A DNA stretch of 40,081 nt, taken from NCBI GenBank assembly GCA_026995555.1, contig JALWOJ010000200.1, forward strand, positions 1 to 40,081. The letters run 5' to 3'. Below the pieces are notes generated by a model that worked only from the letters and a program-made list of their open reading frames with translations, made no database searches and was not told the DNA's origin. Origin of the DNA: Acidilobaceae archaeon. GTDB lineage: Archaea > Thermoproteota > Thermoprotei_A > Sulfolobales > Acidilobaceae. Both the position numbers and the translations under genes were made by a program. Below are positions 4,620-26,495 of this stretch, in pieces; within the stretch, counting starts at the first letter, position 1, and each line of letters opens with the position of its first letter.

Positions 4620-6014
4620 TTAGGGGCTTACGGCGTGAAGTATTAGCGGCGCTATCACTCCAAATATTATTGTTATCACTGCTCCAGTAACTAGAGCAGC
4701 CTCAACTCCCGGAGATATTTCTGGGGCTTTCTCCGTTTCGGTGTTACGGGACAGTATGTCCCTCACGGCGAGGGCATAGTATGCTGCGCTTATTCCACTG
4801 TTTATGAGTGCTATGAGGACTAGAGGTATTGAGTACTTGACTGCTGCTAGGAACATATAGAGCTTGCCCCAGAAGCCTAGGAAGGGAGGAACTCCTAGAA
4901 GACTGAAGAGCAGTATTGTTGCTGAGATCGCTGCGATAGGGCTCGACTTGATAAGCCCTTTAAGTCCCTTGAACTCGCTTGTTAATGAGAACAACGGTGT
5001 CTTGCTCATAGAATAGGCGATTGCATGAATAGCTATTGCACCCATTGCTAAGGAAGCGATCTTTGGATCTGTGGGAGCAAAGTAAGCTAATGCCGCTAGA
5101 GCGGTGAAGATATAGCCTATATGGGCAATGCTACTGTACGATAATATTAGTTGTAGTCTCCTTGTTGTTAGTGCGGCAATATTTCCATAGGTCATTGTAC
5201 CAACTGCTAGTGCAGCTAAGAAGAGGGCAACCTTACTCGCTATGTCCATGTTTGTAGAAATTACATAGACGAGCCTAGTTATTGCAGCAATAAATGCCAG
5301 CTTAACCACTCCGGCAACGAGGGAAACAGCCTTCCCATCAGCCTTTCCGTAAACGCTGGGGAGCCACCAGTGGAATGGAACTACTCCTAACTTAAATCCT
5401 AGAGCAGCTACAACAGCAACTATTGCTATGGCTGAAATTCCAGAAGTTGTATAGGGCTTATAGAAGAATCCCTGCATTCCTATTCCTGTATGAAGTGCGA
5501 CCCAGAAGGCCAAGAATATGGTTGCAATCGCTCCCATCATTATGTATCTGACCGAGGCTGCCTTGCTCTCAGGGTCTGGAGGTAGCGCTATAATGATGTA
5601 GCTTGCAACGGAAACTAGCAGCCATGAAGCTAGTAGTACTAGTGCATCCGCGGCGCCTGCCAGATAGAAGAGACCGAAGAGAATTAATGAAAATAGGCTA
5701 TAATAAGCTGGATGGGTCGGCCATTCTGTAGCGAGCTCGCCCATAGCAAGAAGGCTTATGGCTGCAGCGATGGCAGCAGCAAATGTGAGTCCAGCTGTGA
5801 ACTTGTCATGAACTACTAGACCATGATAGAATACTATGGGTTCCCTCGTTGCTGCTCCAACAAAGAGAGCTCCATATCCTATTATCGCAATTGCAGCAGC
5901 AACAGCTGCAAGTATTGTTATGAGACTCCTTCTCTTAGCTGGGATAACAGGTATTATAAGGGAGATAGCAAGTATTGTGTAGACCGTTCCTTCAACAAAG
6001 CCCTCTAGACTCAT
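4620..6014 (-). CDS. nuoN: NADH-quinone oxidoreductase-like subunit N
   Basis: Proton-pump antiporter-like membrane protein; GVVPFHWWLPSVYGKAD, SYSSIAHIGYI; last gene of the nuo operon. Confidence 0.85.
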   Translation of the reverse strand: MSLEGFVEGTVYTILAISLIIPVIPAKRRSLITILAAVAAAIAIIGYGALFVGAATREPIVFYHGLVVHDKFTAGLTFAAAIAAAISLLAMGELATEWPTHPAYYSLFSLILFGLFYLAGAADALVLLASWLLVSVASYIIIALPPDPESKAASVRYIMMGAIATIFLAFWVALHTGIGMQGFFYKPYTTSGISAIAIVAVVAALGFKLGVVPFHWWLPSVYGKADGKAVSLVAGVVKLAFIAAITRLVYVISTNMDIASKVALFLAALAVGTMTYGNIAALTTRRLQLILSYSSIAHIGYIFTALAALAYFAPTDPKIASLAMGAIAIHAIAYSMSKTPLFSLTSEFKGLKGLIKSSPIAAISATILLFSLLGVPPFLGFWGKLYMFLAAVKYSIPLVLIALINSGISAAYYALAVRDILSRNTETEKAPEISPGVEAALVTGAVITIIFGVIAPLILHAVSP

Positions 6015-6019
6015 CTAGA

Positions 6020-8050
6020 TCACCTCAGCCATTCAAGCACAAAGAGCAGAAGTCCTAGAGCTGTCAGTGCAAGGTACATAGCATTATAATACTCAGGCCT
6101 TCCGCGATGTAGTGCTCTTGTGGCAAGGCTCGCCACTCCAGCAAACACCACTAGACCTATGTGGTAGAACCAGTCAATACCAAAGTCAACTGCCCACAGC
6201 ATGTAAGAGACTCCTATGAAGCCAACGACGAACAGCAGATAGATTATTGAGTTTATATACCATCTGTCGAAGAGGAAGTTGAATGTTATTCTGGCGGCAA
6301 CACTCTTCTTTATTAGCTCTCTGAAGTTAACATGCCATACTAAGTAGAGGGCGATCACTATGCCTATAGTCGTTAATGCACCTCCTAGAACCATTGCTAC
6401 GTGTGAGGTTAGATGAACTGCTAGGCTTGCTGGAGATGAGAGTGCTAAGGTCAGTTCGCTAGCTCTTGAAAGCACTCTACCCATGTAGTTCCAAGCAAGT
6501 CCGAACGTCAGCGCTGCGAGTGCAAGTATTGTGTAGGGAACTAGCATCAATGGAGGTGCCTCGTGGGGTTTGTGTTCAGGAGGTTCGTAAGGTGGCATAT
6601 GGAAGACCCTAATTATTAGCCTTGTTGTATACGCAGCTGTCAGAAGTGCTGTAACTGCACCAAGTATATAGACCCATGTTAGCCCTGCATCCTCTGCAGC
6701 CTTTAGCGTTAATTCCTTCGAGAAGAACCCGCTAAGTGGTGGAATTCCCGCAAGGCTTAGGCCAGCAAGCCACATGGATATGGCGGTTACCTTCATGTAT
6801 TTTGCATAATCTCCCATTTTATCTATGAACCTGCTGTGTGCGACGTGAAGTGCCCATCCTGAAATTAGGAACAGGGCTGCCTTGAATATTGCATGGCTCA
6901 TAAGATGAGCCAAGGAGGCAGCTATTCCTGAGGCGAAGAGATATCTGTTAGCCTCCTCTATTATTGCTCCTGCAGCTCCTGCGGCCAAGAACATGTATCC
7001 TATTTGGCTTGCCGTTGAGAAGGCCAGTATCAGCTTGAATTCATTTGATACGAGGGCCATTGTAGCCAGTATAAAGGCGGTGACAGCGCCTATTCCAGCA
7101 ACTATGAGGAAGTACTCTCTGGCCTGTAATATTGCTAAATGACTTCCGGAGAGCAGTGCTCCAGTGAATATTATTGGGGCAAACCTTAGCACGAAGTAGA
7201 TGCCTGCCTTGACCATAGTTGCCGCGTGTATTAGTGCAGAGACTGGCGTGGGACCTGTCATAGCTGTTACAAGCCATTCGTGGAACGGGAACTGGGCGCT
7301 CTTAGCAAAGGCTCCCAGAGTTAGGAGAAAGAGAACCAGCGTTAGCATACCTTTCGCTGCTAATGCTCCAGACCATCCTCCAGCAGCACTTGCTATCCCT
7401 CTTATTGATAAGGTTCCGGTCAGATGATAGAGAACGGCCATCCCAATAAGCATTCCTATATCTCCAAATCTAGTGAACATTATTGCCCTAAGGCCACTGT
7501 GGCTGGGCTCAAAGTACATAGGCAATCCTAGGGCTTTCCTTCCAGGAACTCCAACCCAGTACTCCTCTTCGTCCGTGTACCAGTGGCCTATGAGTGCATA
7601 GCTTGCTAAGCCTGTGCCCTCCCAACCTATGAAGAGAAGCAAGAGGTTCTCTGCGCTCACCACTAGAAGCATACTTCCCACGAAGAACGCGAAGAAGAAG
7701 AAGTATCTTGGGTATCCCCAGTCACCCTTCATGTACTCAACACTATAGACTCCTATGAGGAAGCTCAGCCATGATACAAGCATTGTCATTATCGCTGAAA
7801 GACCGTCAATATATGTTGAAACGTTGACATTTATCCACGGAATCCAGTGATGTACATCAAGTATTGGCTTTCCAGTCTTTAAGACATGAATTCCAACGAC
7901 CGTTGCTATTACAGCTGCAACGAAGAGAGATGTGGTGGTTGTTATGGCGTAAGGCCACTCCTTTCTCACTCCAGAGATGTAAAGTATTGCCATTAATATA
8001 GCTCCAAAATACGGGAAGAGCCATATTAAGCTAGCTAAGAAGGGTTCCAT
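6020..8050 (-). CDS. nuoL: NADH-quinone oxidoreductase-like subunit L
   Basis: 676 aa; LLLLFIGWEGTGLASYALIGHW, AKSAQFPFHEWLVTAMTGPTPVSALIHAATMV, long C-terminal extension. Confidence 0.9.
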   Translation of the reverse strand: MEPFLASLIWLFPYFGAILMAILYISGVRKEWPYAITTTTSLFVAAVIATVVGIHVLKTGKPILDVHHWIPWINVNVSTYIDGLSAIMTMLVSWLSFLIGVYSVEYMKGDWGYPRYFFFFAFFVGSMLLVVSAENLLLLFIGWEGTGLASYALIGHWYTDEEEYWVGVPGRKALGLPMYFEPSHSGLRAIMFTRFGDIGMLIGMAVLYHLTGTLSIRGIASAAGGWSGALAAKGMLTLVLFLLTLGAFAKSAQFPFHEWLVTAMTGPTPVSALIHAATMVKAGIYFVLRFAPIIFTGALLSGSHLAILQAREYFLIVAGIGAVTAFILATMALVSNEFKLILAFSTASQIGYMFLAAGAAGAIIEEANRYLFASGIAASLAHLMSHAIFKAALFLISGWALHVAHSRFIDKMGDYAKYMKVTAISMWLAGLSLAGIPPLSGFFSKELTLKAAEDAGLTWVYILGAVTALLTAAYTTRLIIRVFHMPPYEPPEHKPHEAPPLMLVPYTILALAALTFGLAWNYMGRVLSRASELTLALSSPASLAVHLTSHVAMVLGGALTTIGIVIALYLVWHVNFRELIKKSVAARITFNFLFDRWYINSIIYLLFVVGFIGVSYMLWAVDFGIDWFYHIGLVVFAGVASLATRALHRGRPEYYNAMYLALTALGLLLFVLEWLR

Positions 8051-17894: not shown

Positions 17895-20800
17895 TTGTCC
17901 ATCAAGATAAAATTGGAGGAAAGCTGGGGGAGAGGTTCATATAGATTAGCTTGTCCTAACTGTGGGGGCACAATAACAGAGGATAGACTCGCAAAGGGAC
18001 TTCCCTGCGAAAAATGTCTAGCTAGGCCACCAGAGAATCCCACGATTGAAACTATCTATGAGGCTCTAAAAAGGGAAGGGAAGTTAAAGGAGTCCTACAA
18101 GAAGTTATATGAGCTTGAGGTCACCTTTAAGGATTTCGTTTCATTTTTCGAGAAACTTGTTGGCTCAAGGCCTTGGGGTGCTCAGAGAGCTTGGATGAAA
18201 AGGTTAGTTAGAGGGGATAGTTTTTCAATAATAGCTCCTACAGGTGTTGGGAAGACCACTTTTGGCTTAATCGCAGCCCTTTTCTATGCATGTAAGAAGG
18301 GTTCGAAATCGTATATAGTGTTGCCGACAACGACGTTGGTTGTTCAGGCCTATGATAAGATTGAGGCATTTAAAGATGCAGGCGGGAAGGAGTGTTCAGA
18401 GGTACGTGTCCTTGCGGTACATTCAAAGATGGGTGCTAAGGCTAGGAGGGAGGCCATGGAAAGAATAAGGTCTGGAGACTTCGACGTGCTGATATCTACA
18501 TCAGCCTTTATGAGGAAGAACGCTGATGTTCTTAATAAAGCAAACTTTAAGTTCGTTTTTGCTGATGATGTAGATGCAGTGTTAAGAAGTGGGAAAAGCG
18601 TAGATGCGATATTAAAGGTCGTTGGCTTTTCTGATGAGGATATAGAGAAAGGCCTCATGCTTCTAAAGATCTTAAGAGAGCAAGCCTCCTTAGTGGCATC
18701 ATTACAAAGAGCTTCGGGAGAGAGGAAGGAGAAGCTTAAAGCTAGGCTTGTAGACCTTGAAATTAAAGCTAGAGAGTTGAGAAGGGAAATTTCTAAAAAG
18801 AGAGAAAAGGTGGCAAGACTTGTCGTCAGCAGCGCAACTGGAAGGCCTCGAGGCGCCAGAGTGAGACTCTTCAGAACATTACTTAACTTTGAGGCTGGAG
18901 GAAGAAGTGATATAGGACTCAGAAACGTTATAGATACGTATATAAAGCCCAAGGATAGCATTGAGGATGAGGTAGTTAAACTCGTAAAGAAGCTAAAGGA
19001 GGGCATCCTAATTTTCGTTCCTATAGATGTTGGGATTGAAGGAGCTGAAAGGCTTGCGGAGAGGCTTAAGGAGGAGGGAATTAATGCTGAGGCTTATCAC
19101 TCAAAGAAACCGATAAACATTTTGGAGGAGTTCTCTAAGGGTAAAATTCCTGTTCTGGTCGGTGTAGCTAATTATTATGGCACTCTGGTCAGAGGGTTGG
19201 ACCTTCCAAGGATAGTTAAATATGCCATATTTGCTGGGGTTCCAAGACATAAGTTTGGCATGGATATAGGGGAACCGCATCCTGCAAGGCTTTTAAGACT
19301 TCTTTCTCTATTAAGCGAACTGGATATCAAGGAAATAGCTGATGAGGCAAGGGTACACTTAGCAAACATGAGAAAACTTCTCAGAAGGTTAAGCCCTGCA
19401 GCACTTCAGGTGATAGCCGAAAAGGTTTTAGAGGGCGAAGTTGAAGGGGCGGGATCTCCAGCAAGGGTGGTATGGGAAGCATATAATTTCCTTAGAAATG
19501 CTCTTTCTGATAAGGAGGTCTGGGACAAGCTCTCTAAAAGGGAGGATGTCGCTGTTGTTGAGGAGAGTGGTAAACTTTACGTTTTAATACCGGACCCAGC
19601 AACCTACGTTCAAGCCTCTGGCAGAACAAGCAGGCTTTATGCGGGAGGTATAACTAAAGGTCTTAGCATAGTCGTAGTTGATGACGAAAGAGTCTTCAAG
19701 GGTTTAGTTGAAAGGGTCAGGTGGATAACAGAGGCTAAGTGGGTTCCCCTTGAAGACTTAAACTTAGATGATGTAATTAAGGAAATAGAAGAGGACAGAA
19801 AGAAGGTTGGAAGAATACTTTCTGGTAAGTTTGAGGAGAAAGATCTTGTTAAGACAGCTCTCCTAGTTGTTGAGTCTCCAAATAAGGCTAGAACTATAGC
19901 TAACTTCTTTGGACAGCCAAGCATAAGAATTCTTCCAGGTGGCTTAAGGGCCTTCGAGGTGGCGACAGGAGACTATATTCTAACAATAGCGGCAAGTGGA
20001 GGCCATGTATATGATTTAGTCGAGGACGAGATTAAGGATTCAGACGTGCCTGAAAGCATGAAACCTTATGTTAAGAAAAAGGTCTTTGGAGTTATAGTAT
20101 TAGATAAGGATGGGGAGAGAACGTATCACCCTGTTTATACGAGTATAAAGAGATGTCTCATTTGTGGACATCAATTTACTGCAGATACGGACAGATGTCC
20201 AAGATGTGGAAGTACTTTAATAAAGAATTCTAGGGATACAGTCGAAGATCTCAGGAGGTTGGCCTGGGAGGCAGACATAGTTCTTATAGGCACAGATCCT
20301 GACACTGAAGGAGAGAAAATAGGGTGGGACATAGCTTTACTCTTGAGGCCTTATTCTAAATCAATAATGAGGCTTGAGTTCCACGAGGTTACTAGAAGGG
20401 CAATAAGAGAGGCTTTAAGAAACCTTAGGGACTTCAATCAGAGGCTTGTTGACGCTCAGATAGTTAGAAGGATAGAGGACAGATGGATAGGCTTTACATT
20501 AAGCCCTTGGCTATGGTGTGACTTCTGGCCGAACTATTATTGTAGGGGCGATATTGTAAAAGTTGCTGGAAGGGATAGGGAGAGATGTGAGACTTCAACA
20601 TACTTCTATAACCTTAGTGCTGGAAGAGTTCAGACACCTACCTTAGGTTGGGTAGTGGAGAGGACAGACGAGGCTAAAAAGAAGGTCTATCTCTTCACTC
20701 TCTGGATAGACTCTGCTAGAATAGCATTTAGAGAGGATGACGAAGCTTTAGTTGACAGAAGCGGGCTTAAAGATCTTAAAGAGCTTGGCGGTAAGAAGGC

Positions 20801-22016
20801 TCAGGGAGAATTTACAGTCAAGGTAAAGGTTGAAAAGATTGAGGAAAAGGAGGATATCCTGAATCCGCCACCGCCATATACAACAGACGATCTGATAGCG
20901 GATGCTAACAGGTTCTTGGGCCTAGGAGCTCCAGAAACCATGGCTTTGGCTCAAAACCTTTTCGAATGGGGTCTAATTACTTACCACAGAACGGACTCGA
21001 CCAGGGTGAGCGATAGAGGCATTCAGGTTGCAAGGGAGTGGATGGAGCAGAAGTTTAAGGAAAAGGCCAAGGAGCTTTTCAAGCCAAGAACTTGGGGCAA
21101 AGGAGGGGCTCACGAGGCAATAAGGCCCGTAAGGCCTTTGGATGCAGAAACCCTTTCAAGACTCATAGAGGAGGGACTCATAGAAATTCCGGGAGAACTC
21201 ACTAGAAGGCACTTAGCGCTTTATGACCTCATATTTAGAAGGTTCATGGCAAGCCAGATGAGAGAGGCCAAGGTTTTAAAGGCCACTTATAGGGTAAGCA
21301 TTGAGCCCTACAGCCAGAACCTAGTAGTCTTAGAGATAAAGGATCGGATAGTGTCTGTAGGCTCAGGATCTAAGGAGGGTGAGGAAATCGACGTTGAGGC
21401 CGGATTTCTTAACGTTTGGGATCGGTTCTTCAGGGTAGAGGAGCCCGTTCCTGAAGGTGTATTTGAGGCAAAGGTAACATTTAGAAAAGTTAGTAAAAGG
21501 CCGCTGTTCACTCAGGGAGAGATCGTCGAAGAAATGAAGAAGAGGGGAATAGGAAGGCCAAGTACATATGCAAAGATAATAGACACCCTGTTTAAGAGGG
21601 CTTATATCGCTAAGATCAAGGTCGAGAGAAGGCAAGAGAGAGTCGTTGCAACTTCTAGAGGAAAAGCTGTCTATAGGTATCTAACTGACTACCTGAAAAA
21701 TGCCGATAAAAGCGTTTATGGAGATCTTGCTGAGAAGCTAAGAAGAATACCTACTTTGGTGTCTGAGGAAAGAACTAGAATTCTCGAAGAGGCCATGGAT
21801 GACATTGAGGAAGGTAAGAAGACAAGAATTTCTGTGCTTAACGAGATTTATAACGAGATAGCGGAGTTAGCCGATGCTGTAATTGAGGCAATCGAGAACG
21901 TCAGCAAGGGCGAGCTTAAGGCTCCCGAAAAAGAGCTCCTTGCCAGATTCAGGGAGTGCATAAAGGGATTCCTTGAGAGGGAAGGAGGTGATAACAAAAG
22001 ATGGACGTCAGGCTAG
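17895..22016 (+). CDS. rgy: Reverse gyrase (helicase plus topoisomerase IA)
   Basis: N-terminal CPNCGG...CEKC, Walker A APTGVGKTT, LLVVESPNKARTIANFFG, second zinc finger CLICGHQFTADTDRCPRCGS, GLITYHRTDSTRVS active-site tyrosine motif. 1373 aa, TTG start. Confidence 0.96.
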   Translation: MSIKIKLEESWGRGSYRLACPNCGGTITEDRLAKGLPCEKCLARPPENPTIETIYEALKREGKLKESYKKLYELEVTFKDFVSFFEKLVGSRPWGAQRAWMKRLVRGDSFSIIAPTGVGKTTFGLIAALFYACKKGSKSYIVLPTTTLVVQAYDKIEAFKDAGGKECSEVRVLAVHSKMGAKARREAMERIRSGDFDVLISTSAFMRKNADVLNKANFKFVFADDVDAVLRSGKSVDAILKVVGFSDEDIEKGLMLLKILREQASLVASLQRASGERKEKLKARLVDLEIKARELRREISKKREKVARLVVSSATGRPRGARVRLFRTLLNFEAGGRSDIGLRNVIDTYIKPKDSIEDEVVKLVKKLKEGILIFVPIDVGIEGAERLAERLKEEGINAEAYHSKKPINILEEFSKGKIPVLVGVANYYGTLVRGLDLPRIVKYAIFAGVPRHKFGMDIGEPHPARLLRLLSLLSELDIKEIADEARVHLANMRKLLRRLSPAALQVIAEKVLEGEVEGAGSPARVVWEAYNFLRNALSDKEVWDKLSKREDVAVVEESGKLYVLIPDPATYVQASGRTSRLYAGGITKGLSIVVVDDERVFKGLVERVRWITEAKWVPLEDLNLDDVIKEIEEDRKKVGRILSGKFEEKDLVKTALLVVESPNKARTIANFFGQPSIRILPGGLRAFEVATGDYILTIAASGGHVYDLVEDEIKDSDVPESMKPYVKKKVFGVIVLDKDGERTYHPVYTSIKRCLICGHQFTADTDRCPRCGSTLIKNSRDTVEDLRRLAWEADIVLIGTDPDTEGEKIGWDIALLLRPYSKSIMRLEFHEVTRRAIREALRNLRDFNQRLVDAQIVRRIEDRWIGFTLSPWLWCDFWPNYYCRGDIVKVAGRDRERCETSTYFYNLSAGRVQTPTLGWVVERTDEAKKKVYLFTLWIDSARIAFREDDEALVDRSGLKDLKELGGKKAQGEFTVKVKVEKIEEKEDILNPPPPYTTDDLIADANRFLGLGAPETMALAQNLFEWGLITYHRTDSTRVSDRGIQVAREWMEQKFKEKAKELFKPRTWGKGGAHEAIRPVRPLDAETLSRLIEEGLIEIPGELTRRHLALYDLIFRRFMASQMREAKVLKATYRVSIEPYSQNLVVLEIKDRIVSVGSGSKEGEEIDVEAGFLNVWDRFFRVEEPVPEGVFEAKVTFRKVSKRPLFTQGEIVEEMKKRGIGRPSTYAKIIDTLFKRAYIAKIKVERRQERVVATSRGKAVYRYLTDYLKNADKSVYGDLAEKLRRIPTLVSEERTRILEEAMDDIEEGKKTRISVLNEIYNEIAELADAVIEAIENVSKGELKAPEKELLARFRECIKGFLEREGGDNKRWTSG

Positions 22017-22921
22017 CAATAGTGCACACAAGGTTAAGGCTTGGTTATAGAAGAGTTAACATGAGAAAGCTCAACAAGGCGTTCATGGAGGCAAGGGACG
22101 TCAAGGGAGCTGAGATAGTTCTATTGCCCGCATATCCCCTTCTCGGTCCTGTTATTGGCTATTATCCTGAACAAAAGGCTAGGCATTACTTAAGATCCTT
22201 TGCCGAGAGGCTCAGCGGCCCTAGAGAATCACATACTATTTCCGTTCTCTCAAGGTTGGCCAGCAGTTACGGCGTTGAAGTTATAGGTGGCCCTATAATT
22301 GAGAGGGCAGGTCCTAGACTTTACTTAACCGCATTTCACATAGATAGCAATGGTATTCTTAGAGGGAAATATAGGAAGATAATGGTAACTAAGGCTGAAA
22401 AAGATTTAGGCATAAGCTCTGGGAAAACAGCTACTGTTTTTGAAACTGAGAGTGGGCTGAGGGTTGGCATATTTCTTGATGAAGATCTTCTAAGTCCGGA
22501 AGTGTTTAGATACATGCAGTTCGACGATCCCATGATCATGGTAGGGACAATGCTACCATACGAATCCGATTACATAAAGTCTGAGTTCTTGAGAGGTCTC
22601 GAAAGTGTGAAGACCATGAACATCGATGCAGTCAAATCTCTTCTTTGGTCCAGGGCACTTGAATCTGGTCTTCCCATAGTTCTTGTAGGCGGTGCCGTGG
22701 AGTCCCCAACTTTTGGAGTCGATGTGGCTTTCATGCCATCAATCATTACAGATCCTGAAATAGGAATTACGGATAAGTTGATAAAGGGATATGATGATCT
22801 TGATGAAGTTTTCATTGTTGAAGTTGATCCTAGGGTAAGTAGGGCTAAGAGATGTGAGGGTTCCTGCATGAATATCTTTAAAAGCTTATGTTTAAGGGAG
22901 CTCAGAAGGAAGAAGAGTTAA
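22001..22921 (+). CDS. Carbon-nitrogen hydrolase (nitrilase)-fold protein, probably catalytically inactive
   Basis: Nitrilase-like segments AEIVLLPAYPLLG, GKYRKIM, RVGIFLDEDLLSPEV; only the Lys of the Glu-Lys-Cys triad appears retained. Overlaps reverse gyrase by 16 nt. Confidence 0.65.
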   Translation: MDVRLAIVHTRLRLGYRRVNMRKLNKAFMEARDVKGAEIVLLPAYPLLGPVIGYYPEQKARHYLRSFAERLSGPRESHTISVLSRLASSYGVEVIGGPIIERAGPRLYLTAFHIDSNGILRGKYRKIMVTKAEKDLGISSGKTATVFETESGLRVGIFLDEDLLSPEVFRYMQFDDPMIMVGTMLPYESDYIKSEFLRGLESVKTMNIDAVKSLLWSRALESGLPIVLVGGAVESPTFGVDVAFMPSIITDPEIGITDKLIKGYDDLDEVFIVEVDPRVSRAKRCEGSCMNIFKSLCLRELRRKKS

Positions 22922-26120: not shown

Positions 26121-26495
26121 TTGGAGAACATAGAGAAGGCGATCTCAGTCAAGGTATCAAGCCTCGAGGATCTAGCCCGCCTCGCCTCGACCCTTGCCTC
26201 AAGGCTCATAGTCATGCCAATATATAGGTTTAAGGACAATGGAAAGGTGTTCTATTTCATTCAAGCATCATATAAAGATTATTATAAGCAATATGGGCTT
26301 CCAGTCCTCTATTACTACTCGAGACCTGAGGAGAATGACGTTGATGATTCTAAGGCTAAGTATGTTGTTGCAAAGACTGATGAGACGGGGGAGAGGGTCG
26401 AGATAACAGACAAGGTGAGGCCTGGCTATACAGCAATACCCATAGTTAACTTAGCGGAGAGGCCTATCTTCTTCTCAGAGGAGAAAGGTGCCTGA
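26121..26495 (+). CDS. Hypothetical protein, 124 aa
   Basis: Intact ORF (TTG start) with GAGGGAG upstream; overlaps the following Nudix ORF. No motif recognised. Confidence 0.7.
   Translation: MENIEKAISVKVSSLEDLARLASTLASRLIVMPIYRFKDNGKVFYFIQASYKDYYKQYGLPVLYYYSRPEENDVDDSKAKYVVAKTDETGERVEITDKVRPGYTAIPIVNLAERPIFFSEEKGA

Follow-up and report, generated by a model that had tools for sequence, protein, structure and literature searches.

A nitrilase-fold pseudoenzyme gene linked to TopR1-type reverse gyrase genes in an archaeal order

Directly downstream of a TopR1-type reverse gyrase gene, and on the same strand, the 40,081-nucleotide stretch of DNA analyzed here (the window) carries a gene for a protein with a predicted nitrilase fold. 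Sequence comparison places this protein in a family of nitrilase-fold pseudoenzymes that have lost the catalytic Glu and Cys. We tentatively favor the reading that this is an ancient pseudoenzyme, co-expressed with TopR1, that works through binding instead of catalysis, probably in the response of DNA topology to heat. Reverse gyrase is the hallmark enzyme of hyperthermophiles. A class-wide gene that is tied to TopR1, has shed its catalytic residues and has been retained by selection is a concrete candidate for the control of TopR1 activity. The features of the locus are as follows.

17895..22016, + strand: TopR1-type reverse gyrase gene (1373 aa; TIGR01054 at 1447.7 bits; on the TopR1-like side of the paralogue tree, outside the TopR2-like clade)
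21984..21992, + strand: Shine-Dalgarno sequence GGAGGTGAT for the downstream pseudoenzyme gene, within the 3' end of the reverse gyrase gene, read directly from the sequence
22001..22921, + strand: nitrilase-fold pseudoenzyme gene (306 aa; PF00795 at 61.6 bits; AlphaFold2 pLDDT 95.3, pTM 0.92; Foldseek PDB matches are nitrilases and amidases)
22130..22132, + strand: Ala44 codon, at the catalytic Glu position (Glu in 17/17 outgroup nitrilases and 0/123 scorable family members)
22376..22378, + strand: Lys126 codon, at the catalytic Lys position, kept (Lys in 117/124 family members and 17/17 outgroup nitrilases)
22478..22480, + strand: Asp160 codon, at the catalytic Cys position (Cys in 17/17 outgroup nitrilases and 0/124 family members; Glu or Asp in 112/124)

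Fold and catalytic positions of the pseudoenzyme family

The window protein scored well above the cut-off of 23.2 bits for the Pfam CN_hydrolase profile (PF00795), which also matched 67/67 members of alignment A2. Structure prediction had been proposed as a check in the first-pass annotation of this DNA. The AlphaFold2 model, for which the 67-sequence alignment was the input, supports the alpha-beta-beta-alpha nitrilase fold, and a Foldseek comparison of this model with the PDB returned nitrilases and amidases at E ~1e-17. A divergent member, L136, which also lacks the Lys, has the same predicted fold (pLDDT 88.9). Because both proteins model as nitrilases, the fold appears to have been retained though the chemistry is gone. 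A phage or viral origin was considered and rejected, as Foldseek against viral structures gave a single general CN-hydrolase homologue of similar length.

The nearest known system is the Pyrococcus nitrilase/amidase (PH0642, PDB 1J31/6YPA; hyperthermophilic nitrilase 3IVZ), which resembles the window protein in fold and length and shares its KYRK motif. It was the top PDB profile match and was also among the Foldseek matches. Unlike this enzyme, the window family has replaced the active Glu and Cys, has its own GPIIERAGP motif and is linked to reverse gyrase. The window protein likewise differs from the enzymes of the nitrilase superfamily at large (PF00795, NCBIfam NF040852, deaminated glutathione amidase, AguB) in that the catalytic triad is absent and the score lies far under the cut-offs of the enzyme-level (equivalog) NCBI models (33.9 vs 500 bits). 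It is easy to annotate such proteins as nitrilase or amidase although they are without the residues for that work, and the annotation is corrected here.

The initial reading of the triad was that Glu had become Ala, Lys was kept and Cys had become Asp. We compared 124 aligned family members from the window's order (123 of them scorable at the Glu column) with an outgroup of 17 archaeal nitrilases that have Glu-Lys-Cys at the same columns and include L001, a paralogue from the window genome. This comparison confirmed the three calls at Ala44, Lys126 and Asp160. The profile alignment to Pyrococcus PH0642/1J31 agrees, with LP[S/A] falling on LPE, GKYRK on GKYRK and [E/D] on the active-site Cys. 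Family members carry Ser, Ala, Pro, Tyr, Gln, Thr or Gly at the Glu position. Among 14 further members found by profile only, the 11 scorable at all three columns had neither Glu (0/11) nor Cys (0/11); the other three, from family f2, have a gap at the Glu column and Leu at the Cys position. The description of the protein as a pseudoenzyme is thus backed by the alignment, the structure model and the family-wide loss of Glu and Cys.

The triad could have been supplied from other positions, an outcome that the first-pass annotation had named as a refutation and that did not materialize among the 124 aligned members. No replacement Glu lies within three columns of the lost Glu in any of them, and a replacement Cys lies within five columns of the lost Cys in just 2/124. 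The f2 members do have a Cys four residues upstream, yet they lack the Glu and, in most cases, the Lys too. This near-absence of neighboring Glu and Cys speaks against a relocated triad.

An improbable alternative is that the protein is a repurposed enzyme whose pocket, with the Lys and a new acidic residue, runs a different reaction. The high frequency of both residues (117/124 and 112/124, respectively) and the conservation of family-specific residues would fit such a reading. However, one f3 genus has Gln for the Lys and Ala for the Cys, several f2 members have changed all three positions, the Glu position is variable and no conserved new triad was seen.

A protein search found relatives in 155/197 genomes of the window's order, and a profile search added members adjoining reverse gyrase in genomes that the protein search had missed. 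The family is ancient, and in the phylogenetic tree it is monophyletic against the 17 triad-bearing nitrilases (SH-like support 80). Among the genomes searched outside the class, no match scored over 133 bits; the 16 that were read are triad-bearing nitrilases.

Loss of catalytic residues would also be expected of the decaying remnant of a former nitrilase. This explanation is refuted and has next to no probability. Intact, full-length ORFs are found across the class, even beside decayed TopR1 genes, and 11 residues are invariant across 67 members. Some of them (His9, Pro98, Ala103, Gly104, Gly230 and Pro246) are fixed in the family and are absent or variable in active nitrilases. The closest relative, L003, has the same gene order and a protein 84% identical to that of the window. 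Nonsynonymous divergence between the two is low (dN 0.084), and since synonymous sites are saturated, only this low dN, not dN/dS, can be used.

Linkage to the TopR1-type paralogue

The first-pass annotation had reported a 16-nt overlap with the reverse gyrase gene, and the ORF coordinates bear this out. The pseudoenzyme ORF starts with ATG, and a longer start is unlikely because the frame upstream of this codon is open for only two codons. The Shine-Dalgarno sequence GGAGGTGAT is a perfect match 8 nt ahead of the ATG, and the pattern occurs three times in the window against 0.33 expected. From the overlap in the window and the short gaps elsewhere, we infer that the pseudoenzyme gene and TopR1 are co-transcribed and translationally coupled.

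The same arrangement, with the pseudoenzyme gene directly 3' of a TopR1-type reverse gyrase gene, recurs in ten of the order's families and, elsewhere in the class, in at least two more. Across 97 measured same-strand loci, the median gap between the two genes was +4 nt (36 overlapping, 45 at 0-50 nt and 16 above 50 nt, with a maximum of 201). The 14 loci found by profile in f2 and f9 are arranged likewise, as are three loci from two families elsewhere in the class. Reverse gyrase was the neighbor in 98/120 loci, and the next most conserved neighbors reach 36. Because the triad losses and the adjacency both recur, across ten of the order's families and others in the class, they are more than chance. 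The adjacency, whose absence from all relatives had been offered as a refutation, is present in nearly all of them. The suggested link to topology control holds up as an operon-type association with TopR1 and not as a demonstrated function.

A 124-aa protein encoded at 26121-26495 (+) of the window, with no Pfam or NCBIfam match, recurs near the locus (36 loci, six families). In several f9 genomes, its gene lies directly 3' of the pseudo-nitrilase gene.

Genomes of the order generally have two reverse gyrase paralogues, and the pair recalls the TopR1/TopR2 paralogues of Crenarchaeota (PMC6878951, PMC8185306), with the pseudo-nitrilase gene traveling here with the TopR1-type copy. One clade of the reverse gyrase tree holds 18 copies, none with a nitrilase-fold neighbor; all 46 linked copies fall on the other side, together with seven unlinked ones. 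A scan of the 18 TopR2-type loci found no pseudo-nitrilase beside any of them (0/18). The second zinc finger is intact in 18/18 copies of the unlinked clade and its losses are confined to the linked side, a pattern that agrees with the published TopR2-like and TopR1-like proteins (PMC6878951). Divergently upstream of the linked reverse gyrase gene in family f11 lies a CDC48 gene (TIGR01243). This matches the order in Sulfolobus islandicus, where SiRe_1582 is CDC48 (PMC5682000) and SiRe_1581 is TopR1 (PMC5535833). The side of the tree, the zinc-finger pattern and this gene order together identify the linked partner as TopR1. The S. islandicus counterpart of the pseudoenzyme, judging by gene order, should be SiRe_1580 in strain REY15A.

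The TopR1 copies of family f7 (L200, L201, L274, L275, L278) are unusually long, at ~1420-1470 aa. Their profile matches fall in several separate stretches, as if the topoisomerase half had inserts.

Uncoupling from TopR1 and the proposed role

Strict co-occurrence of the gene with TopR1 was not found. Within f1, the family of the window, eight genomes keep the gene (G037, G046, G054, G062, G081, G148, G173, G190) with a TopR2-like enzyme as the sole reverse gyrase over the cut-off, and five of the eight are 99% complete. Two f9 genomes have lost TopR1 in place. In G158 (L131), internal stops interrupt a TopR1 remnant (4847-5895) that has an intact pseudo-nitrilase gene directly 3' of it. In G150 (L134), TopR1 is reduced to roughly its final 50 codons (6137-6295), and an intact pseudo-nitrilase gene follows directly. 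In some f7 genomes, the two genes are at least 13 kb apart. Conversely, family f6 has TopR1-like genes without a pseudo-nitrilase neighbor. Orphan pseudo-nitrilases are nested within linked lineages in the tree, and their evolutionary rate is close to that of their linked relatives. Together, the orphans and the f6 genomes indicate that the linkage is ancestral and the gene valuable on its own, and they disfavor an obligate complex with TopR1. Distances of the gene correlated with those of TopR1 or TopR2 in 15 genomes gave partial correlations that change sign in the jackknife and favor neither paralogue.

An obligate subunit, forming a stable complex that TopR1 needs for its activity, would account for the adjacency, the overlap and the Shine-Dalgarno sequence within the reverse gyrase gene. 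We nevertheless consider it very improbable given the eight genomes that keep the gene with only a TopR2-type enzyme and the f6 TopR1 genes that stand without it. Moreover, purified recombinant S. solfataricus reverse gyrases have been described as active in vitro (PMC4183072, PMC8185306).

The main rival is a real possibility: the gene may encode a non-catalytic nitrilase-fold housekeeping protein, such as a metabolite sensor or a structural subunit of another complex, that is co-expressed with TopR1 and shares its operon by chance. The orphans lend this explanation real weight, as the gene outlasts a neighboring TopR1 that is lost or decays, with no change in its rate, and as their neighbors differ, being a family-B DNA polymerase gene judged by its motifs, a gene that reads as a HerA-like ATPase or an aconitase-like gene. 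Neighboring genes can also share expression for reasons apart from function. Against it stands the near-zero-gap linkage across many families of the class, far above that of any other neighbor.

Under the favored reading of a co-expressed binding factor, the pseudoenzyme would act without catalysis, binding a small ligand or else a protein, either reverse gyrase itself or some other chromosome factor. In the DNA-supercoiling response to heat that TopR1 drives, it may have an accessory or regulatory part. In genomes without TopR1, it could work with the remaining TopR2-type enzyme or with a shared partner. The persistence of the gene in such genomes argues that it is not an obligate subunit. 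TopR1 is described as the reverse gyrase of supercoiling homeostasis in Sulfolobus (PMC8185306), and its mRNA drops after heat shock (PMC8185306, PMC10653856); this homeostatic role and response would make a co-expressed binding factor plausible. A bolder proposal, which we regard as rather unlikely, is that, from early in the history of the class, the dead nitrilase has served crenarchaeal reverse gyrase as its dedicated regulator, tuning positive supercoiling by binding the topoisomerase or by sensing a metabolite or stress signal.

The pseudo-nitrilase is apparently unstudied as a TopR1-linked gene. In the open-access literature on reverse gyrase TopR1/TopR2, we found no mention of a downstream nitrilase-like gene. 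Open-access searches on reverse gyrase with nitrilase, on topR1-adjacent locus tags and on nitrilase pseudoenzymes returned nothing relevant; a passing mention elsewhere is possible. Sulfolobus genetics makes the role directly testable.

The surroundings of the orphan loci vary. In L034 (3944-5815) and L035 (4463-6175), in the orientation of the pseudo-nitrilase, the large upstream gene reads by motif as a putative family-B DNA polymerase, and in the f7 orphan L073 (4063-6210) the upstream gene reads as a HerA-like ATPase. Five reverse gyrases from families f5 and f9 (L174, L179, L186, L265, L266) form a distinct unlinked clade on the TopR1 side of the tree. The genomes that carry them have an orphaned pseudo-nitrilase, and this clade is possibly a replacement of the original TopR1.
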